Made by a program: the position numbers and the translations under genes. From Xanthomonas indica (GTDB taxonomy: Bacteria > Pseudomonadota > Gammaproteobacteria > Xanthomonadales > Xanthomonadaceae), in contig NZ_CP131914.1 of NCBI RefSeq assembly GCF_040529045.1, positions 4,324,501 through 4,388,500 of the forward strand: a stretch of 64,000 nucleotides of DNA, given 5' to 3'. Shown piece after piece: positions 33,905-49,213 of the stretch (positions within the stretch are counted from its first letter, which is position 1; every line of letters begins with the position of its first letter). The notes below the pieces were generated by a model, which had not been told where the DNA came from, searched no databases, and was given only the letters and a program-made list of their open reading frames with translations.

Positions 33905-36900
33905 TCAGAAGTCGTAGCTCAGCGTCACCCGTGCCGAGCGCGGCGCCTGGTAGGCCACCGCCTGGTTCCACAGCGGGTTGACCTCGCCCGGGTTCAACTC
34001 GGAGAACGGATAGACGTTGACCGCCGTCTGCCGGTTGGTGACGTTGAACACGTCCAGGCTCAGCGCCAGCTTGCCGTCGGCGAACTTCGGCTTGTAGCTC
34101 ACGCCCAGGTCCAGTTGCGCCACCCAGCCCAGGGTGCCGTGCGACCCCGGCGGCGACGGCTCGCCGGTGCCGGTGCTGGGGTTGAAGCAGAAGTGGTAGG
34201 GGCCGCCGGTGACGCTGGGATTGGCATAGCCGGCCGGATCGCGATCGCCGGGATCGTAGTTGTCGCCGTAGTAGTAGCCCAGGCAGGGCCGCGGCGCGCC
34301 GGAGATCAGGCTCAGGTTGGCCGAGGTGCCCCACTCCTCCGTCAGCTGGTAGAACCCGTAGGCCTTGAACTGGTGACGACGGTCGTTGGACTGGTTGCCG
34401 TTGAAGTGCTCCATCAGCGCCGCATGGTCCCAGCTCTGCGTGGTCGAGGTCGCTGCCTGGCCCTGATAGCTGCCCAGCGCACCGCCGGTCCGCCACAGGT
34501 CCGAGCGCAGCTGGCCCTCGGTGGTGCCGTAGCTGTGCGACCACACGTAGCTCATCTTGGTGTACCAGCGGCCGTCGAACGGCCGTTCCAGGTTGAATTC
34601 CACCGCCGAATAGCGACGCTTGAATTCGGGGTAGCCGCCCTGCTCGCGGGTCACGGTCAGGGCATGGATCTGGCCATCCGTGCCGATCACCCGGTAGGTG
34701 TTGGTCTTGCCCGGATTGACCAGCGCGGCGCTGGCGTTCTTGGTCCAGTCGATATCCACGCCCGCCGCCGCGGCTGCGGCCAGCAGGCCGGCATTGGAGT
34801 TGTCGAGGTTGGTGTCGTCGATGCCGTCGTTGAGCCGGCGATGCACGCCACGCACGCCGAGCACCCAGTCGTTGGGCAGCAGCTTGCTGAAACCGAGGAT
34901 GAGCTCGTCCTGGTTCTCGCCCTTGATGTCCTCCACGACCGCGGTGCGCACGTCGGCGAGGCGGCCGAAACGCGAGTTGGCCGAGACCGGCGGCGCGAGT
35001 TGCCGGGCCAGGATCGGCGTGCCGTCGGCGTTGATGCCGCTGTAGGTGTAGTAGGTGCTGGTGGACACGGCCGGGGTAAACAGGCCAGCGGGCGACAGCG
35101 GCAGGCCGAGGTAGTAGCGGCCGAGGTTGCCGTACACCTTGAGGCTGGAATCGCCGTTGACGTCCCAGCTGAAGCCCAGCCGCGGCGCCCACTGGTTCTT
35201 CAGCGCGATATAGGCCTGGCCGAACGGGGTGTAGTTGGTGAAGCTGTCGTTGCGCACGCCCAGCGAGAGCAGCAATGTGTCGGTGGCCTGCCAGTGGTCC
35301 TCGATGTAGTAGGCGGTCTGCTTGGCATCGTAGGAATACAGGTTGGTGGCGATGTCCTTGGTGACGTAGTAACCGGTGCTGCCGTAGGTGGGATCGGCCA
35401 GGCCGGGGCTTGGCACGCCGATGCTGCCGTCCTCGGCGACGGAGCCGCTGACCAGGCCGCCGCTGTTGCGGCCGAAGGGATCCGGGGTGTAGCCATAGGT
35501 CCAGGCATAACCGGGGCCGGAACTGTACGAACCGATATTGATCGCCTCGCTCTTCTGGTTGTCGATGCCGACGTCGACGCTGTGCTCGCCGAGGCGCCAG
35601 TTGAGGTTCAGGCGCAGGTTGTCCTTCTTGTATTCGCGGTCCGGATCGGTGATCGAGCTGACCGTCTGCGCGTTGCCGATCGGGGTGCCGCCGGTGTAGG
35701 CCGGGTTCTGGTTGGCGACGCTGTTGAGGAACGGGCCGTTGCCGGCGTCGTAGCCGATCGCGGTGAGCTTGTTGGGCAGTCGTTCCTTGCCGTACAACGC
35801 GGTCAGGGTGACGTTGTCGCCGAAGTACCCGGTGTACTTGCCCAGGAACAGGGTCGGGCCGAAGGTGTTCTTGGCTTCGCGCCCCTTGTAGCTGCCCACG
35901 TCGCGGTTGACGTAGTCGTAGCGGTAGATGCTGCCGTTGGTGCGCGCCTCGTCCTGCGCGCCGGTGAACTCCAGCAGGTGGTTGTCGCTGATCTGCCAGT
36001 CGATCTTGGCATAGGCGCGGGTCTGCTTGTAGTCGTAGCGGGTCCACGGCGAGCCGGAAATGCCGCCCGAGGTGACGCGGGCATCGGCGACGCGGGTGCC
36101 GCTGGAATCGACCTGCTCCAGGGCCAGGAAGAAGAACAGGCGGTCGCGGAGCAGCGGGCCGCCGACATAGGCGCTGTAGGTGGTCTGGTCGGCGCTGGTC
36201 TCGCTCAGCGGCTGGTAGTTGCCGGCGGTGTACTTGGCGTTGGCGGGATTCCAGTACACGCTGTCCCTGCGGAAATACAGGTCGCGCTGCCTGGCGCTGA
36301 GGCTGTCCGGTTGCCAGATCACCGCCGCGCCGAAGTGCCAGTCGTTGCTGCCGCGCTTGCCGACCTGGCTGATCACGCCGCCGTTGGAGCGGCCGTACTG
36401 CGCGCCATAGCCGCCGGTGAAGATTTCCTGCTGGTCGATCGCGCCGTAGGGCAAGGTCAGTCCGCCCAGGCTGCTGGCGGGATCGGTGGTATTGAAGCCG
36501 TTGAGGTGATAGGCGTTCTCGCTGGCCGCCGAGCCGCCGAAACTGGCCAGCGAGCCGCCGAGCGGGCCGTTGTCGTAGCCGCCGCTGTTGTTGACCACGC
36601 CGGGCGCGAGCAAGGCGATGGCCTCGGCGCTGCGGCCCAGCGGCAGCACCGCCAACTGCTCGGCGGTGATCACGGTGCGGCTGTCGACGCTGGCGACGTC
36701 GATCCGCGCCACGTTGCCGGCCACGACATTGACCGCATCCAGCGTCTGCGCGGGGCCGCCGAAGCCGACCTCGGTCCCGGCACCGACCACCAGGCTGATG
36801 TTCTCGCGCGTCTCCACCACCTTGCCGTCGCGCTTGAGCGAGACCGTGTAGGTGCCCAGCGGCAGGTTGCCCTGCGCGTAGCGGCCGCGTTCGTCCACCT

Positions 36901-37069
36901 TCACCTCGCGGCTGAAGCCGCTGCTGGTGTTGGTGATCAGCACGCTGCTCTCGCCGGCGCCTGGCGGCACGCTGCCGACGATGCTGCCGGTGGTGGACTG
37001 CGCATAGCCATTGCCGGCGGCAAGCGCCAGCGCGAGCGCCAGGGCGCTCCTGCGGATCTTACGATGCAT
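33905..37069 (-). CDS. TonB-dependent receptor, Oar-like, with carboxypeptidase-regulatory-like N-terminal domain
   Basis: Outer-membrane transporter of 1054 residues. Signal peptide MHRKIRRSALALALALAAGNGYA, then a Cna-B/carboxypeptidase-like domain (GSIVGSVPPGAGESSVLITNTSSGFSREVKVDERGRYAQGNLPLGTYTVSLKR, about residues 28-110). A plug domain follows (ITAEQLAVLPLGRSAEAIALLAPGVVNN ... NAYHLNGFNTTDPAS ... YGAQYGRSNGGVISQVG), then a long beta-barrel ending in a terminal aromatic residue (VTLSYDF). Oar-type receptors have been tied to peptide or protein uptake; the ligand here is unknown. GGGAGAG precedes the ATG. The promoter carries the same paired boxes as the amine oxidase operon. Confidence 0.93.
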   Translation of the reverse strand: MHRKIRRSALALALALAAGNGYAQSTTGSIVGSVPPGAGESSVLITNTSSGFSREVKVDERGRYAQGNLPLGTYTVSLKRDGKVVETRENISLVVGAGTEVGFGGPAQTLDAVNVVAGNVARIDVASVDSRTVITAEQLAVLPLGRSAEAIALLAPGVVNNSGGYDNGPLGGSLASFGGSAASENAYHLNGFNTTDPASSLGGLTLPYGAIDQQEIFTGGYGAQYGRSNGGVISQVGKRGSNDWHFGAAVIWQPDSLSARQRDLYFRRDSVYWNPANAKYTAGNYQPLSETSADQTTYSAYVGGPLLRDRLFFFLALEQVDSSGTRVADARVTSGGISGSPWTRYDYKQTRAYAKIDWQISDNHLLEFTGAQDEARTNGSIYRYDYVNRDVGSYKGREAKNTFGPTLFLGKYTGYFGDNVTLTALYGKERLPNKLTAIGYDAGNGPFLNSVANQNPAYTGGTPIGNAQTVSSITDPDREYKKDNLRLNLNWRLGEHSVDVGIDNQKSEAINIGSYSSGPGYAWTYGYTPDPFGRNSGGLVSGSVAEDGSIGVPSPGLADPTYGSTGYYVTKDIATNLYSYDAKQTAYYIEDHWQATDTLLLSLGVRNDSFTNYTPFGQAYIALKNQWAPRLGFSWDVNGDSSLKVYGNLGRYYLGLPLSPAGLFTPAVSTSTYYTYSGINADGTPILARQLAPPVSANSRFGRLADVRTAVVEDIKGENQDELILGFSKLLPNDWVLGVRGVHRRLNDGIDDTNLDNSNAGLLAAAAAAGVDIDWTKNASAALVNPGKTNTYRVIGTDGQIHALTVTREQGGYPEFKRRYSAVEFNLERPFDGRWYTKMSYVWSHSYGTTEGQLRSDLWRTGGALGSYQGQAATSTTQSWDHAALMEHFNGNQSNDRRHQFKAYGFYQLTEEWGTSANLSLISGAPRPCLGYYYGDNYDPGDRDPAGYANPSVTGGPYHFCFNPSTGTGEPSPPGSHGTLGWVAQLDLGVSYKPKFADGKLALSLDVFNVTNRQTAVNVYPFSELNPGEVNPLWNQAVAYQAPRSARVTLSYDF

Positions 37070-37090
37070 GCTCTCTCCCGAAGACGAACA

Positions 37091-37108
37091 TCGTTGGCAC
37101 GCCAACGA
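37091..37108. promoter_or_regulatory. 18-bp perfect palindrome in the receptor leader
   Basis: TCGTTGGCACGCCAACGA, 22 bp upstream of the receptor start and downstream of the proposed transcription start. It could be an operator for a dimeric repressor or an mRNA hairpin near the ribosome-binding site. A second inverted repeat (CCCGATT, 9 bp, AATCGGG) lies at 37173-37195. Confidence 0.5.
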
Positions 37109-37217
37109 ACGTGCAGGCGCAACGCCGGATGGCGATCCCCGCGCCCGCGGTGGACACTCCGCCCATCGCATGCCCGATTCCCATCGGCAATCGGGTCATG
37201 CGCCCCTGGACGTTCCG

Positions 37218-37282
37218 ATCCTAGGCAGCGAATCGCGGCGCGGCGCCGGCGGCGACGGGTAGGTGGCGCAGGACCGGGTAGG
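37218..37282 (-). promoter_or_regulatory. Activator-type promoter of the Oar-like receptor (paired CCTACCC boxes)
   Basis: In gene sense: CCTACCC (37282-37276), 12 bp, CCTACCC (37263-37257), 33 bp, -10 TAGGAT (37223-37218), with no -35. Box spacing and box to -10 distance are identical to the promoters at 46211-46275 and 49149-49213. Probable binding site of the MalT-like regulator encoded at 38894. The remainder of the 37070-37377 gap holds the leader palindromes and the hemL upstream region. Confidence 0.6.
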
Positions 37283-38670: not shown

Positions 38671-38893
38671 ACGAACCGCGGGCAGGCGTGGGCGGCTTTG
38701 CTTTTGTGGCGACGCTGGCATAAGTTCGACAGGCAAGGCCAGCGGACGGCACCAGGGTGGGGACCCGTGGAACCTACGCGGCCAAGACCGTTCCGCACTC
38801 CGTGCGGCACGGCGGCGCGCGTCCGGTTCCGTCCCGTCAACCGAACCGCCGGAGGGCGCAAGGGCGACCGCTGCAGAAGACATTGCTGGCGAC

Positions 38894-41668
38894 ATGCCCA
38901 AGCCTGTCACGCTGTTGAACCCGCGTTTTCCTGCGTCCACGCACGACAGCGCCGCCGTGCCCGATTGGGTATTGGTCGACAAGCTCGCACCGCCACGCGT
39001 GCGCGTGGCCACGGTGGCGCGCGAGGCCTTGCTGCAGCACCTGGACCGCGCCGCCGACCTGCCGCTGACCCTGCTGCTGGCACCGCCGGGGTTCGGCAAG
39101 ACCACCTTGCTCGGGCAATGGCACCAACGCCTGCGCGAGCGCGGCGAGGCCGCGGTGGCATGGCTGTCGCTGGACGAGGACGATGCCGACCCCGGGCGTT
39201 TCCTCGCCTACCTGGCGCTGGCCGTGCGCGATGCCGGAATCGAACTCGGCGCGCCGCTGCAGGCCGCGTTGCAGCAGCAAGGGCAGGATCTCGATGCGGC
39301 CGTCACCGTGCCCAGCCTGGTCCGTGCGATCCGCGCCGCGCCGCGGCGCCTGCTGGTCATCCTCGACGATTACGACCGCGGCCAGACCAGCGCGCTCGAT
39401 GAGGTACTGACGCGGCTGGTCGAACATGCCGGCGGCCAGCTACACCTGCTGTTGGCGACGCGGCGCGCGCCGGCGCTGCCGCTGGCGCGCTGGGCGCTGC
39501 AGGGCCAGGTGGAGCGCATCGGCGCGCGGGAGCTGGCCCTGGACGAGGCGGAGACGGCAGCGCTGCTGGGCGCGCAGGTACCGCTGGCGATGGCCCGCCA
39601 GCTGCGTCGCCAGACCGAGGGCTGGGCGGTGGCGCTGCAACTGGCCGGGCTGTGGCTGGGCGGCGACGAACGCCGTCGCGACGACCTGGGCCGCTTCTCC
39701 GGCCGCACCGCCGAGCTGGCGGCGTACCTGGCCGAACAGGTGCTCAACGACCTGGATCCGGAACTGCGCACGCTGCTGCTGCAGCTCTCGCCGCTGGAAC
39801 GATTCAACGCCGCGCTCGCCGACGCAGTGCGCCAGCGCGATGACAGCGGCCGCCTGCTGGAACGGCTGGCGCACTTCCAGGGCCTGCTGGTGACGCTGGA
39901 CGGCGAGCACGAATGGTTCCGGTTCCATCCGCTGTTCGCCGATTACCTGTCCCAGCAACTGGAACGCGCGACGCCCGGGCTGGCACCGCAGTTGCAGCGA
40001 CGTGCCGCGCAGTGGTTCGACGCGCACGGACAGCTGCCCGAGGCGGTGCGGCACGCGGTGCGCGGCGGCGCGATCGACAGCGCCGCCGACTGCATCGCCC
40101 GCGCCGGCACCTGGCAGTTGCTGCTGCGCCACGGCACCGCGCCGGTTCGGGCGCTGCTGCGCCGCTTTCCGCGGCGTTGCATCGGCGAGCAGCCGGCGCT
40201 GGCCCTGACCCAGGCCTACCTGCACATGAAGCTGGGCGAGTTCGCGCACGCGCAGACCCTGCTGGAGCGATTCCGTGATTTGCCCGAACCGATGCGCACG
40301 CCGTTCGAACGCGACTACACGGTGGTGGTGGCGTTGCTGCGCGACCTGCTCGACCAGGTCTGCGCCAACCGGCGCGGGCTGGCGCAGATCGCCGCACAGG
40401 CCGCCGCGCTGGACGCGGACGACAGCCTGGGCCGCGGCACCCTGTGGTGCATCTGCGCCACCACCGCGCTGGGCCGCGCCGATTTCGCCGACGCAGAACG
40501 CTATGCGCAACTGGCCGGCACCGCGATGCAGGCCAGCGGCAGCGAGGTCGGCGTCAGCTATGCGCTGACCCACCTGGCGCAGAGCCAGTTCTACCGTGGC
40601 CAACTGGATCGGGCGGAGGCCACCTGCCGCCAGGCGCTGGCCATCGGCCAGCGCCAGCAGCAGCTCGACCCGACCCTGCAGGCGGTGGGGCAATGCCTGC
40701 TCGCGCAAGTGCAATGCGAACACGGCCGCTACGACGCGGCGGCCGACTGCCTGCAGCCGGCGCTGGCGTTCCTGGAACAGCACGACGGCTGGCTGGACGT
40801 GTACGCCGCCGGCTACGAGACCGCCCTGGTGCTGGCGCGGCAGCACGACCGCAGCGGCCGCGCCGCACTGGACCTGCTCGACCGCATCGACCGGATCGCG
40901 CATGCCCGACACCTGAGCCGGCTCGCCGACCTGGCGCTGGCCTGGCGGCTGCACGTGCTGCTCGACCAGCCGCCGTCGCCGGCGATCGACCTGCTGATCG
41001 CGCGTGCCAGCGGCGAGGCGCGCTTCACGCACGCCCTGGCGCAGCCGCAGGATTGGCGCTTTCTGACCGCGCTGGGTTTCGCCCTGGCCCGTTGGCATCG
41101 CCTGGGCGGACGCACCCGCGCCGCGCTGGCGGTGTTGCAAGGTGTCGAAGCGCGCTGCGTGGCCACCGACAACCAGGTGCACCTGGCCCGCGCACGCGCG
41201 CGCATCGCCCTGGTGCTGCACGACCGCGGCGAATCCGCCGCCGCCCTGCCCTACTTGCGTCACGCGCTGCAGCACGTGGCCGCCACCCAGGCCTGGCAAT
41301 GCCTGCTGGAACTGGGCGTGCCGGGCAAGGCACTGCTGCGCATGGCGCGCCAGCAGGACCCGCAGGCGGCGCCCAACACCACGCTGGCAATGACCATCCA
41401 GACCTTGCTCGACAAGCTGCGTCACGACCAGGACAACGGCGCCGAACTGTTCAGCGAACGCGAACTGGAAGTGCTGGCGCTGCTGGCGCAAGGCGACACG
41501 AACAAGCAGATCGCGCGGCGCCTGGCGCTGTCGGAGAACACGGTCAAGTTCCACCTGAAGAACCTGTACCGCAAGCTGCAGGCCGGCAATCGTGAGGCCG
41601 CCCTGGCCAACGCGCTGCAACGCGGGCTGCTGCAGCGCGCGGCGACGCCGGAGCGCGCAGCGGACTGA
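38894..41668 (+). CDS. MalT-like LuxR family transcriptional activator (LAL type)
   Basis: 924-residue cytoplasmic regulator of the STAND ATPase class. Walker A APPGFGKTT at 63-71, Walker B RLLVILDDYDRG near 155, then WH and a long TPR-like helical sensor region (about 420-820). The C-terminal LuxR HTH is FSERELEVLALLAQGDTNKQIARRLALSENTVKFHLKNLYRKL. Relatives such as MalT bind ATP and an inducer, oligomerise and activate from direct-repeat boxes. It sits between the Oar-like receptor/hemL and the exported amine-oxidation operon, and convergent with the latter. It is the likely activator of the three CCTACCC promoters (inference). The 223-bp gap before it shows no such box pair. Confidence 0.92.
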   Translation: MPKPVTLLNPRFPASTHDSAAVPDWVLVDKLAPPRVRVATVAREALLQHLDRAADLPLTLLLAPPGFGKTTLLGQWHQRLRERGEAAVAWLSLDEDDADPGRFLAYLALAVRDAGIELGAPLQAALQQQGQDLDAAVTVPSLVRAIRAAPRRLLVILDDYDRGQTSALDEVLTRLVEHAGGQLHLLLATRRAPALPLARWALQGQVERIGARELALDEAETAALLGAQVPLAMARQLRRQTEGWAVALQLAGLWLGGDERRRDDLGRFSGRTAELAAYLAEQVLNDLDPELRTLLLQLSPLERFNAALADAVRQRDDSGRLLERLAHFQGLLVTLDGEHEWFRFHPLFADYLSQQLERATPGLAPQLQRRAAQWFDAHGQLPEAVRHAVRGGAIDSAADCIARAGTWQLLLRHGTAPVRALLRRFPRRCIGEQPALALTQAYLHMKLGEFAHAQTLLERFRDLPEPMRTPFERDYTVVVALLRDLLDQVCANRRGLAQIAAQAAALDADDSLGRGTLWCICATTALGRADFADAERYAQLAGTAMQASGSEVGVSYALTHLAQSQFYRGQLDRAEATCRQALAIGQRQQQLDPTLQAVGQCLLAQVQCEHGRYDAAADCLQPALAFLEQHDGWLDVYAAGYETALVLARQHDRSGRAALDLLDRIDRIAHARHLSRLADLALAWRLHVLLDQPPSPAIDLLIARASGEARFTHALAQPQDWRFLTALGFALARWHRLGGRTRAALAVLQGVEARCVATDNQVHLARARARIALVLHDRGESAAALPYLRHALQHVAATQAWQCLLELGVPGKALLRMARQQDPQAAPNTTLAMTIQTLLDKLRHDQDNGAELFSERELEVLALLAQGDTNKQIARRLALSENTVKFHLKNLYRKLQAGNREAALANALQRGLLQRAATPERAAD

Positions 41669-41790
41669 ACGCGGCGACACGCGCGTTGCGTGCCATCAGG
41701 GTTCTGCAGGCGCGAGCGCCGCCGTGTTCATCCGCGGCGCCGGCACGCGCAACACTTCGCCGCCGTACCGCGCGCTGCGCGCGATGTGCC

Positions 41791-42246
41791 TCAGCCGAAC
41801 ACGAACTTGCCCTTCATCACCGCCCAGTGCCCCGGGAACGAGCAGAAGAAGGTGTAGTCGCCGCCCTTGACGAGCTTGGCGGTGGAGAACGTGACGGTGT
41901 CCGACTGCCCGGCGCCGATCACCTTGGTGTGCGCGATGACCCGCGCATCGTTCTTGGGCAGGTAGCTGTCGGCCAGGCTGCTACTGACGCCGGCATTGGC
42001 CACGGCGGGGAAATCGGCGGTCTTGGTCAGCACCCAGTTGTGGCCCATCACCGCGGCGGCGAGCTTGCCGCTGTGCTTGAGCGTCAGCGCCACCTCGGTA
42101 CAGTCGGCGGCGACCTTGATCTGGGTCTGGTCGAAGGACATCTGGTCGGTGCCGGTGATGGTCACCGCACAGGTCTTGGCCCAGGCCGCCGGCGCGAACG
42201 CGAGCGCAGCGAGGACCAGCAAAGGGGACAGCGAGGATGCTTTCAA
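41791..42246 (-). CDS. azu: Azurin (periplasmic type 1 blue copper protein)
   Basis: Periplasmic one-electron carrier. 151 residues with Sec signal peptide cleaved after AWA (residue 23). Copper ligands His69 (GHNW), Cys135, His140 and Met144 (FFCSFPGHWAVM) are all present, plus the Cys26-Cys49 disulfide. The start is TTG at 42246 with a strong AAGGAG site 6 bp before it. It is the last gene of the amine-oxidation cluster, 140 bp after the aminotransferase, and may have its own promoter. It could accept electrons from the cytochrome or flavoenzyme. Confidence 0.95.
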   Translation of the reverse strand: MKASSLSPLLVLAALAFAPAAWAKTCAVTITGTDQMSFDQTQIKVAADCTEVALTLKHSGKLAAAVMGHNWVLTKTADFPAVANAGVSSSLADSYLPKNDARVIAHTKVIGAGQSDTVTFSTAKLVKGGDYTFFCSFPGHWAVMKGKFVFG

Positions 42247-42320
42247 GAAAAACTCCTTGGCAATGGAAACGGCGCAGCGACGTCATGTGCGGCACCACGC
42301 GCTGCCTGCGCAGCGCCACG

Positions 42321-42350
42321 ACTGTCCGCTTTCGCGCAAATGCTTGTCAA
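42321..42350 (-). promoter_or_regulatory. Possible separate promoter for azurin
   Basis: TTGACA (42350-42345) is a perfect -35, but the -10 candidate GACAGT (42326-42321, 18-bp spacer) is weak. A 7-bp hairpin (GCGCTGC / GCAGCGC, 42299-42316) lies in the leader. Confidence 0.35.
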
Positions 42351-42386
42351 CGTCGAACTTTGCGCGCATCGCGGCATGCGCAGTCG

Positions 42387-43574
42387 CTAGGCGTTGCGGA
42401 AGAATCCATGCAGCGGATCGTGCGACGCAAGCGGCGCCGGCACCGGCAGCGGCCCACGCTTGCCCGCCGCCACCTGCGCGAACGCCTGCTTGAACCGCGC
42501 CATCTCCGCCGCGGTGCCGACGGTGATGCGCGAGCGCTCCGGCCACAGCGTCCAACTGCGGCCGACGAACACGCCATAGGTCGCCATCGCATCCATGAAC
42601 TCCTTCGCCGGGCGCTTCACGTCGACCATGAAGCAATTGCTCTCCGAGGCAGTGCACGCGTATCCCTGCGCGCCGAGCCAGCGCACCACGTCGCTGCGGA
42701 TGGCGCTGTTGAGCGCGCGCCGCTGCGGCACCAGCGCCGGATCGCGCAGGCTGGCCAGGCCTGCGGCGACCGCAGTCACCGGCAGGCTGTTGATGCTGTA
42801 GAACTGGAGCTTGGCCAGCAGCTCGGGGCGCGCCACCGCGTAGCCCAGGCGGATGCCGGCCATGCCATAGAGCTTGGAGAAGGTGCGCAGCACGATCACG
42901 TCGTCGCCGGCGGCGACGCGGTCGACCATGCTGCTGGCGCTGTCGGAGAAATGCAGGTACGCCTCGTCGACCACCAGCACGCTGCCCTTGGGCTTGTGCG
43001 CCAGCGCGTATTCCAGGTCCTTGCGCGGGGTGACCGAGCCGGTGGGGTTGTTCGGATTGCAGATGTAGATCACTCCGGCATGGGCGTCGGCGGCGCACAT
43101 GGCCTGCACGTCGTGCGCGTCGTCCTTGCGGAGCGGCACTTTGATCACCTTGGCGCCATTTCGCGCGGCCGCGCGCCAACCGGATTCGTAGGTGGGATCG
43201 GCGGTGACCAGGGACGCAGCGGGCGAAGTGAACGCCAGCATGGCGTAGTCCAGCGGCTCGGTGGAGCCGGCGTAGGCCATCAGATGATCCAGGCCCACAC
43301 CGAGCTGGGTGGCGAGGGTCTGCAGCAATTCGAGCTGCAGTTCGCCCAGGTAGCGCCCGCCGCTGGAGGCGATCGCGGCGATCGCGCGCTGCGCTGCCGG
43401 CGAGGGGCCACCGGGATACTCGTTGGCGTTGATCAGCACCGGCGCCAGTGCGGCGCCGGCGGCCGGCGCCGCCGTGGACGCGGCCTGCGCCAGCCACGGT
43501 GTCCCGAGGCCGGCCGCGGCGGCCAGCGCCGACTGCTGAAGGAACCGGCGGCGCGAAGGCGACGACTGCTGCAT
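42387..43574 (-). CDS. Tat-exported PLP-dependent aminotransferase (HisC-like, fold type I)
   Basis: 395 residues. The N-terminus SRRRFLQQSALAAAAGLGTPWLAQAA is a twin-arginine signal, so the enzyme would be exported folded with its cofactor. The catalytic domain has NPNNPTG (173-179), VDEAYLHF with Asp203 and Tyr206, the PLP lysine Lys234 in TFSKLYGMAGIRLGYA, and late RITVGTAAEM. It resembles histidinol-phosphate aminotransferase, but a periplasmic location rules out histidine synthesis. It probably acts on an amino acid or amine handled by the neighbouring oxidase. AGGAG precedes the ATG; 33 bp from the RidA-like gene. Confidence 0.88.
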   Translation of the reverse strand: MQQSSPSRRRFLQQSALAAAAGLGTPWLAQAASTAAPAAGAALAPVLINANEYPGGPSPAAQRAIAAIASSGGRYLGELQLELLQTLATQLGVGLDHLMAYAGSTEPLDYAMLAFTSPAASLVTADPTYESGWRAAARNGAKVIKVPLRKDDAHDVQAMCAADAHAGVIYICNPNNPTGSVTPRKDLEYALAHKPKGSVLVVDEAYLHFSDSASSMVDRVAAGDDVIVLRTFSKLYGMAGIRLGYAVARPELLAKLQFYSINSLPVTAVAAGLASLRDPALVPQRRALNSAIRSDVVRWLGAQGYACTASESNCFMVDVKRPAKEFMDAMATYGVFVGRSWTLWPERSRITVGTAAEMARFKQAFAQVAAGKRGPLPVPAPLASHDPLHGFFRNA

Positions 43575-43607
43575 GACGGACTCCTGGCAAGAACGTGGCG
43601 AAGGGAA

Positions 43608-44114
43608 CTACGGACGCACCGCGACCACTTCGATCTCGATGCGATACAGCGGATTGCCAAGCGCGGCGATCTGGAACGCCGAACGCGCCGGCAGGTTGGG
43701 CTGCTCGGGCGTGCCGAAGAACTGCCGGTAGCCCTCCATGAAGCCGGCGAAATCCATCTTCCCGCCCAGCGCCGGATCCCCGACCAGGAACGCCTGCATC
43801 TTGACCACGTCGCGCATGCCCAGGCCCATGCCTTCCAGCTGCGCCTTGATCTGCGACAGCACGCTGACCGTCTGCGCCTTGGTGTCGCCGTAGCTGGCCG
43901 GCGCATCCTTCGCGGCCGGATCGAGCGGCCGCGGCACCGCACCGCTGAGATAGACCGTGGTCTTGCCGGCCGGGATCTCCACCGCCGCGGAGATCGGGAA
44001 ATCGCTGTTGGGAATCTTGTGGCGCACGATCTCGGCGGCGCCGGCCAGCGCGGGCAGCCACAACGCGGCGCACAGGCCGACACGGAGCGAACGGGAAACG
44101 ACGCGATGGCGCAT
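43608..44114 (-). CDS. Exported RidA family protein
   Basis: 168 residues: a Sec signal peptide (VSRSLRVGLCAALWLPALAGA) followed by a RidA domain with VYLSGAVPRPLDP, TVSVLSQIKAQLEGMGLGMRDVVKMQAFLVGD and the active-site part LPARSAFQIAALGNPLYRIEIEVVAV, where Arg144 matches the substrate-binding Arg of RidA. Cytosolic RidA is encoded separately at 10390-10773. Between the cytochrome and the aminotransferase, it could hydrolyse the imine made by the flavin oxidase in the periplasm (inference). AAGGAG before the ATG. Confidence 0.9.
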   Translation of the reverse strand: MRHRVVSRSLRVGLCAALWLPALAGAAEIVRHKIPNSDFPISAAVEIPAGKTTVYLSGAVPRPLDPAAKDAPASYGDTKAQTVSVLSQIKAQLEGMGLGMRDVVKMQAFLVGDPALGGKMDFAGFMEGYRQFFGTPEQPNLPARSAFQIAALGNPLYRIEIEVVAVRP

Positions 44115-44159
44115 GCGGAACTCCTTGCGATCGGAACGGGAAAGGAAAGCCAGGCCGGC

Positions 44160-44588
44160 TCAGTGCCGCAGCGCGTGCACGTCCTCGGCACTGAGCCGGC
44201 CGGGATAGTCGTTGCCGAACTGGCTGCGCACGTAGTGCACCACCTCGGCGACCTGGCGGTCGTTGAGCGTGTCGGCGAAGCCGGGCATGCCGCCGTGGCC
44301 ATCGAGCACCATCATCGCCACGTAGGGCGCCGCGGCCACCTTGGGATTGCCGGCCAGCGCCGGATACTCGCCGGCGCCGCGCGCGCCCTGCCCGCCCGGC
44401 ATGTGGCAGCCTTGGCAGATCGCCGCGTACACGGTGGCGCCGGAGGTGGTGGTGAACTCGGCCTGCGGATACAGCGGGGTGGCGTCGGAACTCTGCGCCG
44501 TGGCCGGACCGATCCCCGGCGGCAGCATCAGCGCGACGAGGGCGGCGACGATCGCCGCGGCGAGCATCCAGGAACGATCCAGCTTCAT
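44160..44588 (-). CDS. Small c-type cytochrome
   Basis: 142 residues with an N-terminal signal or anchor (MLAAAIVAALVALMLPPGIGPATA) and one haem site CQGCH at 58-62, distal Met101 in GGMPGFADTLNDRQVAEVVHYVRSQFG. Class I periplasmic cytochrome. Its ATG overlaps the amine oxidase stop (ATGA), so the two are made together, which suggests that it takes electrons from the flavin. NicA2 of Pseudomonas, in the same flavoenzyme family, is known to use a neighbouring cytochrome c instead of oxygen. Confidence 0.93.
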   Translation of the reverse strand: MKLDRSWMLAAAIVAALVALMLPPGIGPATAQSSDATPLYPQAEFTTTSGATVYAAICQGCHMPGGQGARGAGEYPALAGNPKVAAAPYVAMMVLDGHGGMPGFADTLNDRQVAEVVHYVRSQFGNDYPGRLSAEDVHALRH

Positions 44589-46189
44589 GCGCTAGCTCCG
44601 TTGACCACGCGCCGGTGCAGGCGCTCGATCGCGTCCAGCGCCGAGGTGATGGCGCCTTCCTGCCAGGCCGGGATGTACGAGGCGTGTTCGCCGGCGAGGG
44701 CGATGCGGCCGTCGATCTGGCACAGGTTTTCGTAGTGCTCGGCGCGTGCGGCATCGCTCCACACGCCGAAGCAGCCGTGCGTGAACGGCACCCGGTGCCA
44801 GCCCACGGCGATGCCGTTGTCGAATTCGCGCGGGTACTGCGGATGCAGGTGGGTGCCGTACTCCACCGCCTTGGCCACGCGCTGCGGCGGCGGCATCGAG
44901 GTGAACTCGAACGCCTCCAGCCCCCACACGTAAGCGCCGAGCAGCACGCCCTTGCCGGCGCGCTGGAAGCCGGTGCTCGGATAGCTGATCAGGGTGATCG
45001 GCAGGTCGGTGTAGCTGATGCCGCCGTAGATCGCCTCGTCCTCTTCCCAGAAGCGGCGCTTGAACTGCAGGCCGACCTTGACCGAGGCCGCATACGGCAC
45101 CTGGCCGATCGCCGCGGCCATCTTCTCGCCCACCGCGATCGGGATGCGGCTGAGGATCGACAGCGGGATCGTGCACACGCACCAGTCGGCCTTGGCCAGC
45201 CGTTCGCCGCCGTCCGCCTCATAGGCGACGCTGACCCCGTGCGCGTCCTGGTCGATGCGGGTGACCCGCGCGTCGTAGCGGATCGCATCGCCGAGCTGGC
45301 GCGCGAAGGCCTTGCCGATCTGGTCCATGCCGCCGACCGGCTGGAACATCGCGGTCTGCATCTCGTAGTTGTTGCCTGCCGCCAGCGTGGTCCACAGCCG
45401 CGAGCGCAGGATGTCCTCGGTAGTGAACGGTTCGGAGAATTCCGGCTTGCCGGACAGGCCGCCGCCGGGATACTTGGCGAAGCCGCGGCGCTCACTGCTC
45501 TCGCGGCCCTTGACGTAGCCGAAGTCCTTGTCCAGCGCGCCCCAGTTGCGCAGCGACTCGAGCAGGATCTCCTGGTCCTCGCGCTGCAGTTGCGCGTCCA
45601 GCGCGCCCTGCTTGGTGCTCTTGGCCAGCAGTTCGGCCACGTGCCCCTTGTAGTCGGCGTCGATGTCGCGGAAGCGCTGCGGCCTGCCGCCGAAGCCGGC
45701 CTGGCTGTGCAGCAGCGCGTTGAAGTTGACCTGCACGAACGGCTCCAGCGCCACCCCGAACTGCTTGCAATAGGACAGCACCGCCTTGTGGTGGTGCGGG
45801 ATGCGCCACGGCCCGGGGTTGAGGTACAAGCCCTCGTCGAATCCGCACTGCTGGGTGAAGCCGCCCAGCTCGGTATAGCGGTCGCCGCCGCGCAGCGTCC
45901 AATTGCGGCCGCCGGGACGCGCGTTGTACTCGAGCACCTGGACGCGGTAGCCGGCCTTGCGCAGTTCGTAGGCCGCGGTCAGGCCGGCCAGGCCGGCGCC
46001 GAGCACCAGCACCGAGGCGCCGCGGGCGTCGCCGTCCAGCCGCGGCACGCCGGCGAAGCGCGATTCGGTGGCCAGGCCCAGGCTGTGCATCGCCTGGTAC
46101 ATCATCGCGCCGCCGCCGGCCAGGCCGATCCTGGCGAGCAACTGGCGGCGGGTCATGGCTCCCTTGGGGGCTGCGTGCATCGTGGACAT
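44585..46189 (-). CDS. Tat-exported flavin monoamine oxidase family protein
   Basis: 534 residues. Twin-arginine signal TRRQLLARIGLAGGGAM (Arg14-Arg15). FAD-binding Rossmann motif VLGAGLAGLTAAYELRKAG (62-80), Glu87, RPGGR (91-95); GGMDQIGKAF in the middle; C-terminal flavin segment GEHASYIPAWQEGAITSALDAIERL. It has no MAO-type covalent flavin Cys motif. The family oxidises amines or L-amino acids to imines. Genes coupled or close downstream encode a cytochrome, a RidA-like protein and an aminotransferase, so it may be a dehydrogenase rather than an oxygen-using oxidase. Start taken at 46189; ATGs at 46180 and 46156 keep the Tat motif. Confidence 0.92.
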   Translation of the reverse strand: MSTMHAAPKGAMTRRQLLARIGLAGGGAMMYQAMHSLGLATESRFAGVPRLDGDARGASVLVLGAGLAGLTAAYELRKAGYRVQVLEYNARPGGRNWTLRGGDRYTELGGFTQQCGFDEGLYLNPGPWRIPHHHKAVLSYCKQFGVALEPFVQVNFNALLHSQAGFGGRPQRFRDIDADYKGHVAELLAKSTKQGALDAQLQREDQEILLESLRNWGALDKDFGYVKGRESSERRGFAKYPGGGLSGKPEFSEPFTTEDILRSRLWTTLAAGNNYEMQTAMFQPVGGMDQIGKAFARQLGDAIRYDARVTRIDQDAHGVSVAYEADGGERLAKADWCVCTIPLSILSRIPIAVGEKMAAAIGQVPYAASVKVGLQFKRRFWEEDEAIYGGISYTDLPITLISYPSTGFQRAGKGVLLGAYVWGLEAFEFTSMPPPQRVAKAVEYGTHLHPQYPREFDNGIAVGWHRVPFTHGCFGVWSDAARAEHYENLCQIDGRIALAGEHASYIPAWQEGAITSALDAIERLHRRVVNGASA

Positions 46190-46210
46190 CGCCTCGCGGA
46201 TAGCGGATCG

Positions 46211-46275
46211 ACCATAGCCGCCGCGACGGCGGCGCAGGTCGGCTGCGGCGGGTAGGCCGCGATGGAGTGGGTAGG
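46211..46275 (-). promoter_or_regulatory. Activator-type promoter of the amine oxidase operon (paired CCTACCC boxes)
   Basis: In gene sense: CCTACCC (46275-46269), 12 bp, CCTACCC (46256-46250), 33 bp, -10 TATGGT within GGCTATGGT (46216-46211), no -35. The predicted start of transcription is about 15 bp before the ATG. The same layout stands before both TonB receptors. Confidence 0.68.
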
Positions 46276-46315
46276 TGGGTGGGGGTGGGTGCTTGGCGGG
46301 GATTGCGGCCGCCGC

Positions 46316-46350
46316 ACCCTCACCCCACCCCCTCTCCCGGGGGGAGAGGG
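46316..46350. repeat. CCCTCACCCC-type repeat with hairpin after the second receptor
   Basis: CCCTCTCCC / GGGAGAGGG stem (46330-46350), same family as 33693-33806. It is 17 bp after the receptor stop and may act as its terminator or 3' stabiliser. Confidence 0.7.
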
Positions 46351-46366
46351 CTCAAGCGGGCGCGGC

Positions 46367-49063
46367 TCAGAAGCGGTAGGTGAGCTTGGCGTAGTAGCGC
46401 GCGCCGAAGTAGCCGATCGGGCTGCCGGTCAGGTACGGCGAGTTGTAGTAACTCAGGTAGTTCTTCTCGAGGTAGTCGTAGGCCGCCGCCGGGATCTTGT
46501 CCGGATACGTGTTGAACACGTTGTCGCCGCCGATGCTGACCGTGAGCCGCTCGGTGGGGCGGTAGGTCAACTCGACGTTGGTCAGCGCCAGCGTGCCGAT
46601 CTCCTGCTTGTAGTACGGCGCGCCGTTGACGTCGACCACGTCGAGCTTGCGGAGCACGCTGTCGGGGAACACATCGCCGTTCCAGTCGTCGTACGGCGTG
46701 ACCAGCTGGTATTGCGGCCCGTAGATCGCCTCGGTCACGCGCAGGCTGAACTTGCCGATGTTGAAGGTGGCGCCCAGGTTGACCCGGTACTTGGGCGCGT
46801 TGTTCTCCAGGTTGATCAGGGTCGCCGCGCTGTACATGGTGGCGCCGCCGAGCACCTGTGGCGCCGGCTTGGCGTCGAGCACCTCGGTCTTGTTGTAGTT
46901 GGCCGCCAGGATCCAGTCGATCGAGCCCCAGTCGAACTCGCTGATGTAGTTGGTCACCCAGTCCACGCCGCTGCTGCGGGTCTTGAGCGAATTGTTGAAG
47001 ATCGCCACGGAGATGTTCTGGCGCGCGGTGGCGTCGAGCGAGCCGCCCGGCGCGGACGGGTCGACGCCGCCCAGGTAGCCGAAGTCGACCAGGGCCTGGC
47101 CCAGCGCGGTGTTGTAGCTCGCGTCGGGAACGCCGTCGCCGTTGGTGTCGCCCGGCTCCCCGGCCCGGGAATACTCGAAGGTCCCGACGCCGATGCGGTC
47201 GGAGATGGTGATGCGGTAGACGTCGAGCGTGCTGTCGAGGTTGGGCATCGGCCGGAACACGAAGCCCAGGCTGTAGTTGGTGCTGGTCTCCGGCTTCAGG
47301 CTGCCGAAGCCCAGCGCCGCGGCGGCCGCGCTGTTGGGCTGCAGCGTCGGGGTGGCGCTGGTCGGGCCGACCTGCACCGCCGAGTAGTAGCCTTCCTGCA
47401 GGGTCGGCGCGCGGAAGCCGGTGCTGGCGGTGGCGCGCACCGCGAACGTGTCGCTGAGGTCGAAGCGGGTGGTCAGCTTGCCGACCACCTTGCTGCCGAA
47501 GTCGCTGTAGTTCTCGTAGCGCCCGGCCACGTCCAGCAGCCACTTCTCGGTCGGATTGAACACCACGTCGGCATAGGCGGCGTAGCTGTGGCGGCTGTAG
47601 GACCCGGTGTTGAACAGCGGGTTGTAGCCGGGGAAGGAGGAGGCGCCGGCGCCGTAGTACGAGGTCGGGTCGCCCGCATCGATGCCATAGCCGTCGCGGC
47701 GGTACTCGATGCCGGCGTTGAAGGTCAGCGGCTGCGACAGGCCGACCTCGAAATCGTGGGTGGCGTTGAGGTTGGTGGTCCACTGGCTGGCCCAGAAGCT
47801 GCCGTCGTAGAAATCCTCGGGCGAGTAGCCGTCCTCCTGCCACAGGCTGAAGTTCATCGAGTTCAGCGTGTACACGTCCATCTTGTTCTTGCCGTAGCTG
47901 CTGGAGAAATCCCAGGACCAGTCGGCCAGCACGCCCTTCAGCCCGGCAGTGAGCTCGTAGTCGACCTCGTCGGAGGCCTCGGACGGATTGAAGCCCAACG
48001 GGTACTTGTGGCTGACCGTGCCGGTGGCCGGATCGACATAGCCGCCATCCTGGCTGGGACGCCGGTAGTTCTCCTCCGACTGCGCGGTCTTCTTGCCGAA
48101 GCTGCCGAACGCGTAGAACTCGAGCGTGTCGCTGAGCACCGCGCCGGAGTTGAAGAACAGCACCTTGCGGTGCACTTCCGGCGGATTGAGCCAGGCGTTG
48201 ACGTTGGGAAAGCGCGGGTTGAGGGTCATGCCGCGCACGTCGTCGGCGAGGAAGGCGGCCATACTCGGATTGACCGCCGAGCAGTCGGCGTAGTTGGCCA
48301 CGCAGTCGGCGTAGCTGTAGGAGCCGAGCCGGTACACGGTCTTGCGGTTCTCGACCTCGGCGCTGAGGCTGAAGTACGCCGCATCGCTGCCGAAGCCGAT
48401 GTTGGCGCCCCACGAATCGGTCCCCCCGCCCCCGTCCTTGTAGCCGGCATAGCCGGCATCCACTTCGCCACCGTCGTGGTTCTTCTTCAGGATGATGTTG
48501 ATGACGCCGGCGATCGCGTCCGAGCCGTACAGCGCCGCGGCACCGTCGGTGAGCACTTCGACGTGGTCGATCGCCGCAGCCGGGATGAACGACAGGTCCG
48601 CCGACGCCGCGCCGGTGGTGGTGTTGACGTTGGAGGTGATGTGGCGGCGCTTGCCGTTGACCAGCACCAGCGTGTGGTTGGGCGAGAGGTTGCGCAGGCT
48701 GGCGGTGAGCGTCTGGCTCGCCATGTCGTTGCCGGTCTGGTTGGCGTTGTAGGACGGCACCTGGTTGGCGATGGCGTTGATGAGGTCCGGCGCGGCCGAC
48801 TGCTTGAGCATCTCCGCGCTCACCAGCTGGATCGGCGCCGGACTGTCGGTCACCGCCATGTTGGCCTTGCGCGTGCCGGTGGAGATCACCGTGATCGCAT
48901 CCAGCGTCTTGGCCTGGCCGTCCGCGTCTTCCGCCAGCGCCGGCAGCGCCTGTGCGGCGGCCAGCACCACCGCCAGCGTGGCCGTTCCGTGGCGATGCCC
49001 GGCGTTCCCCAGTCCCCTGCGCACCGACTCCGCCAGACGATGCGTTTTCAATCGCTTGCTCAT
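46367..49063 (-). CDS. TonB-dependent receptor next to the amine oxidase operon
   Basis: 898-residue outer-membrane transporter. Long leader ending AQALPALAEDADG, TonB box-like LDAITVIST, plug with ELK-like SAEMLKQSAAPDLINAIANQVPSYNANQTGN, RNLSPNHTLVLVNGKRR and VEVLTDGAAALYGSDAIAGVINIILKK, then a barrel ending YYAKLTYRF. A loop near residue 597 contains DTNGDGVPDASYN, a calcium-binding-like motif. A GGGGG ribosome-binding site precedes ATG 49063. It probably supplies substrate to the exported enzymes; ligand unknown. Confidence 0.93.
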   Translation of the reverse strand: MSKRLKTHRLAESVRRGLGNAGHRHGTATLAVVLAAAQALPALAEDADGQAKTLDAITVISTGTRKANMAVTDSPAPIQLVSAEMLKQSAAPDLINAIANQVPSYNANQTGNDMASQTLTASLRNLSPNHTLVLVNGKRRHITSNVNTTTGAASADLSFIPAAAIDHVEVLTDGAAALYGSDAIAGVINIILKKNHDGGEVDAGYAGYKDGGGGTDSWGANIGFGSDAAYFSLSAEVENRKTVYRLGSYSYADCVANYADCSAVNPSMAAFLADDVRGMTLNPRFPNVNAWLNPPEVHRKVLFFNSGAVLSDTLEFYAFGSFGKKTAQSEENYRRPSQDGGYVDPATGTVSHKYPLGFNPSEASDEVDYELTAGLKGVLADWSWDFSSSYGKNKMDVYTLNSMNFSLWQEDGYSPEDFYDGSFWASQWTTNLNATHDFEVGLSQPLTFNAGIEYRRDGYGIDAGDPTSYYGAGASSFPGYNPLFNTGSYSRHSYAAYADVVFNPTEKWLLDVAGRYENYSDFGSKVVGKLTTRFDLSDTFAVRATASTGFRAPTLQEGYYSAVQVGPTSATPTLQPNSAAAAALGFGSLKPETSTNYSLGFVFRPMPNLDSTLDVYRITISDRIGVGTFEYSRAGEPGDTNGDGVPDASYNTALGQALVDFGYLGGVDPSAPGGSLDATARQNISVAIFNNSLKTRSSGVDWVTNYISEFDWGSIDWILAANYNKTEVLDAKPAPQVLGGATMYSAATLINLENNAPKYRVNLGATFNIGKFSLRVTEAIYGPQYQLVTPYDDWNGDVFPDSVLRKLDVVDVNGAPYYKQEIGTLALTNVELTYRPTERLTVSIGGDNVFNTYPDKIPAAAYDYLEKNYLSYYNSPYLTGSPIGYFGARYYAKLTYRF

Positions 49064-49148
49064 GCCCAAGACCCCCTGGATGACGTGGATATCGCGTGGA
49101 AACGCACCTGTCCCCCGACCGGCGACGCCGTGAACGCGGCGCGGAGGA

Positions 49149-49213
49149 ACCATAGCCAGGGAGGTGCGGCGAGCGGCCGCAGTCGAGGGGTAGGTGGGCC
49201 GCATGCGGGTGGG
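49149..49213 (-). promoter_or_regulatory. Activator-type promoter of the second receptor (paired CCTACCC-like boxes)
   Basis: In gene sense: CCCACCC (49213-49207, one mismatch), 12 bp, CCTACCC (49194-49188), 33 bp, -10 TATGGT within GGCTATGGT (49154-49149), no -35. Geometry identical to 46211-46275 and 37218-37282. The predicted leader is about 79 nt. Confidence 0.65.

Follow-up and report, generated by a model that had tools for sequence, protein, structure and literature searches.

A locus of Xanthomonas indica probably encodes a regulator-controlled module that, judged from sequence, would import a source of amino acids and oxidise L-amino acids in the periplasm. In the proposed route, two TonB-dependent receptors would carry the compound through the outer membrane, and a Tat-exported flavoenzyme of the L-amino acid oxidase (LAAO) type would dehydrogenate L-amino acids, yielding imino acids. 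The reduced flavin would pass its electrons to a co-encoded cytochrome c and on to the respiratory chain, with NicA2/Pnao-type dehydrogenases and the lao cluster of Gluconacetobacter diazotrophicus as precedents, and an exported Rid3-like RidA would convert the imino acid into keto acid and ammonium, a step with an in vitro Rid3 precedent. A neighbouring MalT-like LuxR regulator would bind a direct repeat of 19-base period located before the oxidase gene and both receptor genes. The enzyme core has been described before; the present analysis adds the proposed control switch and the larger set of genes.

Gene content of the locus

The window is a stretch of 64,000 nt of contig NZ_CP131914.1 (GCF_040529045.1, positions 4,324,501-4,388,500, forward strand). 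An initial annotation of window positions 41,791-46,189 had described five genes for exported proteins, all on one strand, as an amine-oxidising pathway. Its structural observations were confirmed: the five ORFs lie on the minus strand (Table 1), Arg14-Arg15 of the oxidase (OX) is present and invariant across 20 aligned orthologues, and the genes of cytochrome c (CYT) and OX overlap by 4 bases (ATGA). Its interpretation was upheld in part. The exported route of flavoenzyme, cytochrome c and RidA is broadly conserved, retains its catalytic residues and has close precedents (PMC5053998, PMC12224317, PMC5619798), while the amine type, the novelty, the role of azurin and the five-gene boundary were not borne out. 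OX, CYT and RidA recur together across genomes, the aminotransferase (AT) accompanies them, among the testable loci, in Xanthomonadaceae only, and azurin is not specific to the set. The four enzyme genes belong to a larger module, which extends to two TonB receptor genes and probably to a regulator gene. A search of 41600-49700 detected no sigma-70-like promoter, and the five genes are not separated by any terminator-like hairpin; three hairpins, all within the receptor 1 region, did not exceed shuffles (mean 3.5).

Comparisons within the family used 297 Xanthomonadaceae genomes, 33 with OX and 264 without, and the whole X. indica genome (4.8 Mb) was searched. Export signals were scored in 110 loci with the oxidase by our own hydropathy and motif script rather than SignalP.

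Table 1 Predicted features of the module and the adjacent azurin gene, in window positions
Feature	Position	Strand	Remarks
TonB-dependent receptor 2 (plug, OMP_b-brl_4 barrel)	33905..37171	-	PF25183, PF07715
Direct repeat, exact	37257..37282	-	85 bases upstream of receptor 2 ORF
MalT-like LuxR-family regulator	38888..41668	+	ORF 38483-41668; likely start MPKPVTLL near 38888
Azurin, neighbour judged not dedicated	41791..42246	-	151 aa; TTG start behind AAGGAG
AT, Tat-exported PLP aminotransferase, PtaA/PRK09105-like (predicted)	42387..43574	-	395 aa; PF00155 E 2.4e-42
RidA, exported Rid3-like imine/enamine deaminase (predicted)	43608..44114	-	168 aa; PF01042 E 4.1e-16
CYT, exported monohaem cytochrome c (predicted)	44160..44588	-	142 aa; PF13442 E 6.2e-14
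OX, Tat-exported L-amino acid oxidase-type flavoenzyme (predicted)	44585..46189	-	534 aa; PF01593
Direct repeat CCTACCCA-N11-CCTACCC, predicted operator	46250..46275	-	60 bases upstream of OX start
TonB-dependent receptor 1	46367..49063	-	PF00593, PF07715; likely start MSKRLK at 49063 (estimate), ORF to 49204
Direct repeat, one mismatch	49188..49213	-	upstream of likely receptor 1 start

The flavoenzyme, its cytochrome c and its RidA

OX matched the flavin amine oxidoreductase domain PF01593 with 202.8 bits (cut-off 19.8, E 1.5e-59). Its best solved relative was the LAAO of Rhodococcus opacus (2jae, 326 bits), followed by the tetrapod LAAO group at 151 bits. R129, conserved in 116/116 sequences, corresponds in the alignment to the GATRIP arginine of 2jae, which we take to be the carboxylate-binding residue. 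By these sequence features OX is an LAAO-type rather than an amine-type enzyme, and the NicA2-type assignment was not supported. The window protein carries the Tat motif TRRQLL, and the motif script found a twin-arginine motif in 106/110 oxidases; of the remainder, one was cut by a contig end (L057) and three had starts seemingly set too far upstream (L067, L068, L101). An AlphaFold2 model of OX from a 20-row alignment was set aside (mean pLDDT 62.6).

The partner cytochrome retained CxxCH and Met101 in 105/105 sequences, and a signal-like hydrophobic stretch was present in 108/110, the two others (L081, L087) scoring 1.5 against the threshold of 1.6. A Tat signal together with an adjacent cytochrome c gene has been used as predictor of cytochrome c-using dehydrogenases (PMC12224317), and OX shows both. 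In this respect it resembles NicA2, Pnao and their relatives, which are Tat-exported flavin amine oxidoreductases encoded beside c-type cytochrome genes; unlike the enzymes of that NicA2-seeded survey, OX is of LAAO type and accompanied by an exported RidA, and the terms 'amino acid oxidase' and 'RidA' do not occur in the survey's main text (PMC12224317). By analogy we infer that OX delivers its electrons to cytochrome c rather than to O2.

The converse, a periplasmic H2O2-producing LAAO that uses O2 while the cytochrome serves otherwise, for example in peroxide handling, appears unlikely. Lys371, the equivalent of the O2-reactivity lysine of the superfamily (PMC12224317), was retained in 115/116 sequences, the remaining one having a gap, so an O2-using oxidase keeps a small share of probability. 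However, proven dehydrogenases such as NicA2 and Pnao carry the same lysine, and sequence alone does not decide between oxidase and dehydrogenase (PMC12224317). In the wider Pseudomonadota, 29 loci with 1.5 kb flanks contained the Tat motif in 24 cases, an orthologous cytochrome in 19 and RidA in 21. In ten more distant relatives the 1.5 kb flanks contained no gene for an orthologous cytochrome (RidA was found in eight of them), so O2 or another acceptor could serve in the wider family. Against oxygen as acceptor here, the CYT gene lay directly downstream of OX on the same strand in 80/80 named loci, and in G. diazotrophicus, mutants in cytochrome c maturation produced about 5% of the wild-type amount of auxin (cited in PMC5053998).

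RidA had the chains PSPTO3006 and PFL1385 as its nearest solved relatives. Its catalytic Arg144 and conserved Glu162 were each kept in 96/97 sequences (a gap in the other), and a signal-like hydrophobic stretch was seen in 99/99 proteins. The gene was downstream of OX on the same strand in 68 of the 79 testable named loci and was not found there in 11. The Rid3 proteins PSPTO_3006 and PFL_1385 speed removal of LAAO-made imines in vitro; the text available does not deal with their export or their partner in the cell (PMC5619798). The RidA of the window is predicted to be exported. An extracellular or periplasmic LAAO paired with RidA also occurs in Chlamydomonas, where LAO1 with LAO2/RidA turns L-amino acids into keto acids and free ammonium. 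That system differs in being eukaryotic and built on an H2O2-producing oxidase, and the available text mentions neither a cytochrome nor a transaminase or receptor belonging to it (PMC10805672).

The closest described counterpart is lao-cccA-ridA of G. diazotrophicus, an LAAO-cytochrome c-RidA core reported to be conserved in Xanthomonas and Caulobacter, in which cytochrome c and RidA were proposed as LAAO helpers (PMC5053998). Since this three-gene core has been published, mutants included, the annotation's view that the combination was not a described pathway did not hold. In both clusters, genes for a Tat-signal LAAO (533 aa in G. diazotrophicus), cytochrome c and RidA follow one another in this order on one strand. 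Unlike the X. indica module, that of G. diazotrophicus is described, in the text available, without aminotransferase, TonB receptor, regulator or operator, and it was studied for auxin, not for its electron acceptor (PMC5053998).

Synthesis of auxin (indole-3-acetic acid, IAA) from tryptophan via indole-3-pyruvate, as in G. diazotrophicus, was considered for the X. indica cluster and is improbable. In its favour, lao mutants of that species had no detectable IAA (PMC5053998), and the peptides encoded by six published lao, cccA and ridA primers were colinear in the window proteins (residues 404/403, 447/446; 41/52, 108/118; 48/51, 113/116). The single peptides are short, with 25, 32, 403, 6, 12 and 217 of 500 shuffles scoring equally high in the GDI2456-2454 comparison. 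A search for the laoF primer gave no match in 42 genomes from a single genus (up to 3 mismatches) and no exact match in 105 genomes of its family, which may not be Acetobacteraceae. Against auxin, no indolepyruvate decarboxylase exceeded the family cut-off in the genome (best 103 bits versus 946), and an IpdC-completed pathway was rejected there, while IAA could form by another route; the TonB receptors and other repeat-preceded genes point instead to uptake and catabolism. Sub-cut-off decarboxylase matches were also present in all 14 control genomes.

The aminotransferase and azurin

AT scored 553 bits with NF006580, the PRK09105 aminotransferase subfamily (cut-off 444), and 418.5 bits with the PtaA equivalog NF051461, its second-best NCBIfam match and below the cut-off of 500. 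It carries the twin-arginine motif SRRRFLQ, and such motifs were found in 53/58 aminotransferases; the five negatives included a broken sequence (L058), a late start (L041) and a real RR-to-RS change (L049). In the family, AT was downstream of OX in 31/33 loci, and an orthologue of at least 70% identity was present in 28/297 genomes, 27 of them with OX. AT was missing from 6/33 OX genomes and from all 45 testable loci outside Xanthomonadaceae, and is thus not essential to the core. Homologous Tat transaminases, 54% and 57% identical to AT, elsewhere on the chromosome of two genomes (G053, G001) had the repeat upstream; they were no closer to AT than paralogues of OX-less family members (48-63%).

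Like PtaA of Pseudomonas fluorescens, AT is a predicted Tat-exported PLP transaminase, but PtaA acts on pyoverdine (review PMC6206403). As the weakest step of the scheme, AT of Xanthomonadaceae would most likely draw its amino acceptor from the keto acid formed in the periplasm. A fuller version, which we offer tentatively, is a closed regulon that would take up amino acids, free or released from carriers of acylated or peptide type, and oxidise them in the periplasm; keto acid made there by LAAO, cytochrome and RidA would recharge the exported transaminase. Among openly licensed PMC full texts, no paper on the operon's transaminase or receptors was found.

Azurin was recognised by TIGR02695 (184.5 bits, cut-off 105.1), and its His, Cys, His and Met copper ligands were present, three of the four being gapped in 2/32 sequences. 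That it serves as dedicated electron carrier of a five-gene amine pathway, as first annotated, is now very unlikely. Its gene followed OX in 30/33 Xanthomonadaceae loci, as that proposal would have it. However, azurin was found in 191/297 family genomes versus 33 with OX, and four close genomes retained it after loss of OX and the other enzymes, which speaks against a dedicated role. Moreover, one OX genome (G186) gave only a partial azurin match (residues 6-79), 140 bases separate the azurin and AT genes, and the enzyme is LAAO-type, not amine-type. Azurin looks like a bystander.

The receptors, the regulator and the direct repeat

Receptor 2 exceeded the cut-offs of PF25183 (99 bits) and PF07715 (33.2 bits) and fell just below that of PF13620 (30 against 32.3). 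The regulator resembles MalT-type LuxR regulators, with a LuxR HTH above cut-off (PF00196, 70.9 bits) and a weak TPR_MalT match (33.5 bits, cut-off 45); it failed the MalT equivalog NF003420 (296.6 bits, cut-off 537). MalT operators are direct repeats, and the repeat of the X. indica module differs from that of MalT.

The direct repeat CCTACCCR-N11-CCTACCC, with a 19-base period, precedes OX and the two receptor genes. With at most one mismatch, the longer pattern occurred three times in the genome, all at the module (reversed control, 2), and the exact core twice (control, 0). Across the family, the exact core was found in 27/33 OX genomes versus 10/264 without OX, the reversed pattern in 4/33 and 20/264; the six OX genomes without it were G018, G041, G042, G092, G175 and G288. 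Of 72 repeat sites at 42 loci, 67 lay at starts of receptors, OX or AT. Some exact core sites seem to have no link with the regulon. Nine genomes share one and the same 25-mer, CTACCCTTCACGAGACCGCCTACCC, and isolated sites occur in G004, G190, G295 (contig 3) and G275 (contig 13), the last adjoining a PhoH-type gene. Surroundings were viewed for the G190, G295 and G275 sites.

From its position, its rarity in the genome and its joint loss with the regulator, we infer that the repeat is the operator of the MalT-like regulator. Where the regulator was found in Xanthomonadaceae loci, its gene adjoined the cluster, and in four related genomes enzymes, both receptors, adjacent regulator and repeat sites were all absent. 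This joint loss may be one event. Such linkage argues against another factor binding the repeat while the regulator merely travels with the cluster, an explanation to which we give little credence. It would be favoured by two OX loci in which the repeat persists with the regulator broken or undetected (L043, L049) and by the survival of a repeat at a relic of receptor 2 (G265). L147, L148 and L151 retain short regulator matches (49 to 62 residues), but these lie in the long-ORF part overlapping the class III aminotransferase gene, so the regulator was counted as absent there. Regulator and receptor 2 persist without OX in G207 and G231, hence they are not strictly tied to the oxidase.

A doubtful alternative is that a lipopeptide, siderophore or N-acyl amino acid is imported through the receptors and then modified or broken down in the periplasm, by PvdQ-like deacylation, PtaA-like transamination and LAAO oxidation of the amino acid set free. 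G053 has the repeat ahead of a penicillin-amidase/PvdQ-like acylase gene (PF01804, 406.9 bits; PvdQ model 236.9, short of the cut-off of 950) and of the AT homologue; in G030 it precedes a TonB receptor whose siderophore receptor match, 112.8 bits, lies below the cut-off of 223.5. However, the acylase link is confined to one genome, and no acylase was found among the subset of window ORFs scanned. Twenty selected neighbour ORFs at five loci outside Xanthomonadaceae (L068, L076, L088, L101, L111) had no common substrate theme.

If the module works as proposed, it would bring the LAAO branch, together with an exported imine deaminase dedicated to it, into the range of cytochrome c-coupled flavoprotein amine dehydrogenation. 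The fuller, tentative version would introduce a new family of MalT-like regulators with a 19-base-period direct-repeat operator and show where a periplasmic transaminase obtains its amino acceptor, a question left open by the pyoverdine review (PMC6206403), and a periplasmic keto-acid supply would make the recycling of Tat-exported transaminases directly testable. The predicted regulator, operator and receptor set would put substrate and function within reach of simple genetics.

Gene content and conservation of the oxidase cluster

The five genes that the initial annotation had read as an exported amine-oxidising pathway were confirmed at their positions on a single strand. The oxidase, a PF01593 flavoenzyme, is followed by a monohaem cytochrome c gene with an ATGA overlap, and then by the genes of RidA, a class I/II aminotransferase and azurin. 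The azurin gene starts with TTG at window position 42246, and a strong AAGGAG ribosome site lies ahead of it.

Features of the locus, with the CCTACCCR-N11-CCTACCC direct repeat
Feature	Strand	Position (nt)	Gap to preceding gene	Repeat upstream
Receptor 1	-	46367-49063		one mismatch, ~124 bases before likely start
Oxidase	-	44585-46189		exact, 60 bases before start
Cytochrome c	-	44160-44588		
RidA	-	43608-44114	45 bases	
Aminotransferase	-	42387-43574	33 bases	
Azurin	-	41791-42246	140 bases	
MalT-like LuxR-family regulator	+	38888-41668		
Receptor 2	-	33905-37171		exact, 85 bases before ORF

Export signals were called by our own motif and hydropathy script instead of SignalP. Judged in this way, the predicted export is kept across relatives: the twin-arginine motif occurs in 106/110 oxidases and 53/58 aminotransferases, and a signal-like hydrophobic stretch in 108/110 cytochromes and 99/99 RidA proteins.

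One scan of a species genome collection found 148 relatives, of which the best 80 named loci, the closest relatives only, were compared. The cytochrome gene was directly downstream of the oxidase in 80/80 loci, and a RidA gene lay further down that strand in 68/79 testable ones (32/33 Xanthomonadaceae and 36/46 others). Within these same 80, the aminotransferase was downstream in 31/33 Xanthomonadaceae loci and 0/45 testable others, and azurin in 30/33 and 0/45. Pseudoxanthomonas composti GSS15 (L060), which is not known as a pathogen, is one relative that carries the complete set. In a wider draw (E up to 1e-25), the oxidase was found in 27 of 398 Pseudomonadota genomes. The 29 loci from this draw other than the window (1.5 kb flanks) included 19 with an orthologous cytochrome, 21 with RidA and 24 with a Tat motif, part of the Tat misses being due to the script choosing a wrong glycine motif. 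A deeper set of ten LAAO (L-amino acid oxidase)-type loci (L130-L138 and L141; 36-44% identity) had an adjacent RidA gene in eight and an orthologous cytochrome in none within 1.5 kb flanks, and three of them carried a different CxxCH protein of ~210 residues downstream. Among 297 family genomes, 33 encode the oxidase and 28 an aminotransferase orthologue (at least 70% identity; fragments in G175, G192 and G231), the oxidase being present in 27 of these 28; azurin matches occur in 191. In a tree of the oxidases, a locus titled Mycobacterium sp. KBS0706 (L070) forms a tight group with Inquilinus limosus, and its label or assembly may be wrong. An Inquilinus locus (L068, 12060-13253) has a cytochrome b561-type protein gene (PF01292) downstream of the cluster, a possible further electron carrier.

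Enzyme identities and published precedents

The best solved relative of the oxidase is the Rhodococcus opacus L-amino acid oxidase (326 bits), with vertebrate-type LAAOs ranking next. An arginine is present in 116/116 oxidase sequences at the aligned position that we take to be the carboxylate-binding residue of LAAO, and the flavin-side lysine of the superfamily in 115/116, the remaining one being a gap. Because an LAAO is the nearest solved relative and the carboxylate arginine is kept, an L-amino acid is the more likely substrate rather than an amine; the amine part of the earlier interpretation is not supported. The catalytic arginine and glutamate of RidA were retained in 96/97 sequences (the remaining one a gap), and the haem motif and methionine of the cytochrome in 105/105. 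The window RidA is nearest to PSPTO3006 and PFL1385, Rid3 proteins reported to act on LAAO-made imines of Leu, Gln, Phe, Met and His (PMC5619798).

Scored against the PRK09105 subfamily model, the aminotransferase lies above the cut-off (553, cut-off 444); against the PtaA equivalog model it lies below (418.5, cut-off 500). PtaA is described as a Tat-exported periplasmic transaminase, and the review adds that it is present also in species lacking pyoverdine and that its cofactor is merely assumed to be 'somehow regenerated' in the periplasm (PMC6206403). A second Tat-type PtaA-like aminotransferase (53%) occurs in the window genome (G000:C1:3300538-3301644; L146 4524-5654); it lies near an SMC-type gene and has no repeat when up to one mismatch is allowed. 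Such paralogues are widespread in the family, also in genomes without the oxidase.

The initial annotation knew of no described pathway with this combination; the LAAO-cytochrome c-RidA core, at least, has been described. The lao-cccA-ridA cluster of Gluconacetobacter diazotrophicus resembles the window core, with a 533-aa Tat-signal LAAO and adjacent cytochrome c and RidA; indole-3-acetic acid (IAA) was reported undetectable in two Tn5 mutants of it, the arrangement is stated to be conserved in Xanthomonas and Caulobacter, and earlier work cited there gives ~5% of wild-type IAA for cytochrome c maturation mutants (PMC5053998). The peptides encoded by six published G. diazotrophicus primers are colinear in the window proteins, each weak alone. 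Tat-exported flavin amine oxidoreductases beside a cytochrome c gene are reported to be cytochrome c dehydrogenases by kinetics, with a Tat signal plus such a neighbour rated a good predictor (PMC12224317). Rid genes are described as clustering with FAD amine oxidase genes (PMC4433059), DadA-DadY is an analogous pair (PMC9714295), and an algal periplasmic LAO1-RidA pair is reported (PMC10805672). From these reports, the core idea is known or predicted already. As a whole, the earlier interpretation is partly supported. A predicted fur box has also been placed ahead of genes including lao (PMC9368920).

A direct repeat shared by the cluster and its receptors

The half-sites of the repeat, a predicted operator, start 19 bases apart. 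Its core, CTACCC-N12-CCTACCC, occurs twice in the whole 4.8 Mb genome versus zero for a reversed-pattern control, and the longer pattern with up to one mismatch three times, all at this locus (control, two). CTACCC pairs up to 60 bases apart, counted by spacing over the sequence then available and with related loci counted repeatedly, numbered 74 at 19 versus 2 at 16, 1 at 20 and 2 at 51. Across 42 loci (the window, 34 of the best 80 and seven later regions), 72 sites with at most one mismatch were found, 60 of them distinct with varying spacers; 67 were near starts of receptor 1 or its replacement receptor, receptor 2, the oxidase or the aminotransferase, and five were unassigned.

The exact core was found in 27/33 oxidase genomes versus 10/264 without the oxidase (Fisher p 2e-24, kinship ignored and genome lists copied manually), compared with 4/33 and 20/264 for the reversed control, and in 0 of 76 loci outside the family. 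In all 27, a site lay within 12 kb of the oxidase (list read by eye). The ten oxidase-less genomes comprised five with one shared identical 25-mer only, three with receptor 2 or its relic, and two with single sites. This 25-mer, CTACCCTTCACGAGACCGCCTACCC, is identical in nine genomes (G057, G071, G111, G207, G231, G245, G256, G275 and G277) and probably represents conserved sequence that has nothing to do with the operator.

Further sites were seen in other genera, in one genome each. In G053 the oxidase operon lacks the aminotransferase, and a homologue (54%) on another contig has the repeat 171 bases upstream. More sites precede receptors and a penicillin-amidase/PvdQ-like acylase ORF (contig 7; L187, L226; 88 bases upstream), and 16 kb from the latter a site with one mismatch precedes a receptor 1 paralogue (52%), which is followed by a DAO-type flavoprotein bearing a Tat signal (QRRNFLHA); the regulon may thus have a D-amino acid branch here. 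The G001 operon includes an aminotransferase of its own, yet the repeat is also found ~380 bases ahead of a second homologue (57%), behind which lies a receptor, as well as ahead of two other receptors and of a second oxidase copy. On contig 7 of this Stenotrophomonas genome (L195; also L066), the second, diverged oxidase-cytochrome pair (68%) has its own repeat, with RidA upstream on the opposite strand. The strongest argument for counting such an aminotransferase as part of the pathway is that its homologues and the oxidase have a common repeat even when apart; caution is due, as comparable paralogues are also present in oxidase-less genomes. In G043 (contig 22; L227 280-305), an exact repeat lies 108 bases upstream of the ORF of an amino acid permease, and EutB, the large subunit of ethanolamine ammonia-lyase, is encoded next, so ethanolamine may join the regulon there. 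In G030, the repeat precedes a TonB receptor that matches a siderophore receptor model below its cut-off.

Joint loss and the proposed route

Four close oxidase-less genomes, G058 (labelled the same species), G226, G281 and G291, were compared with the window. They keep, in order, ThiE, a class III aminotransferase gene, azurin, a second class III aminotransferase gene and a short-chain dehydrogenase gene, and lack receptor 2, the MalT-like regulator and the block from the aminotransferase through RidA, cytochrome and oxidase to receptor 1. The loss thus comprises three blocks around kept genes and may represent one common event. No sites were found in their fetched regions, nor any exact core in their whole genomes. 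A looser pattern was seen in another genus group: G231 no longer has the oxidase, the cytochrome or RidA, and its aminotransferase is broken, while G207 retains only RidA of the core, the regulator and receptor 2 being kept in both; in G140 the core is present without the aminotransferase. Module decay was also observed in Xanthomonas or related loci (L043, L049, L058, L149 and L192), including a broken or partial aminotransferase, a broken regulator and a receptor 2 relic still with the repeat.

Set beside the observed gene content, motif-called export signals, catalytic residues, conserved linkage and repeat positions, the following route is proposed. TonB receptors would import an amino acid source, which the oxidase would turn into an imino acid with electrons going to the cytochrome; RidA would then yield keto acid and ammonium, the aminotransferase could take the keto acid as amino acceptor, and the regulator would bind the repeat. 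Given the acylase and receptors, the imported compound may be an acylated amino acid, a peptide or a siderophore. Beyond the known core, the interest would lie in a regulon with a predicted operator and a putative periplasmic transaminase.
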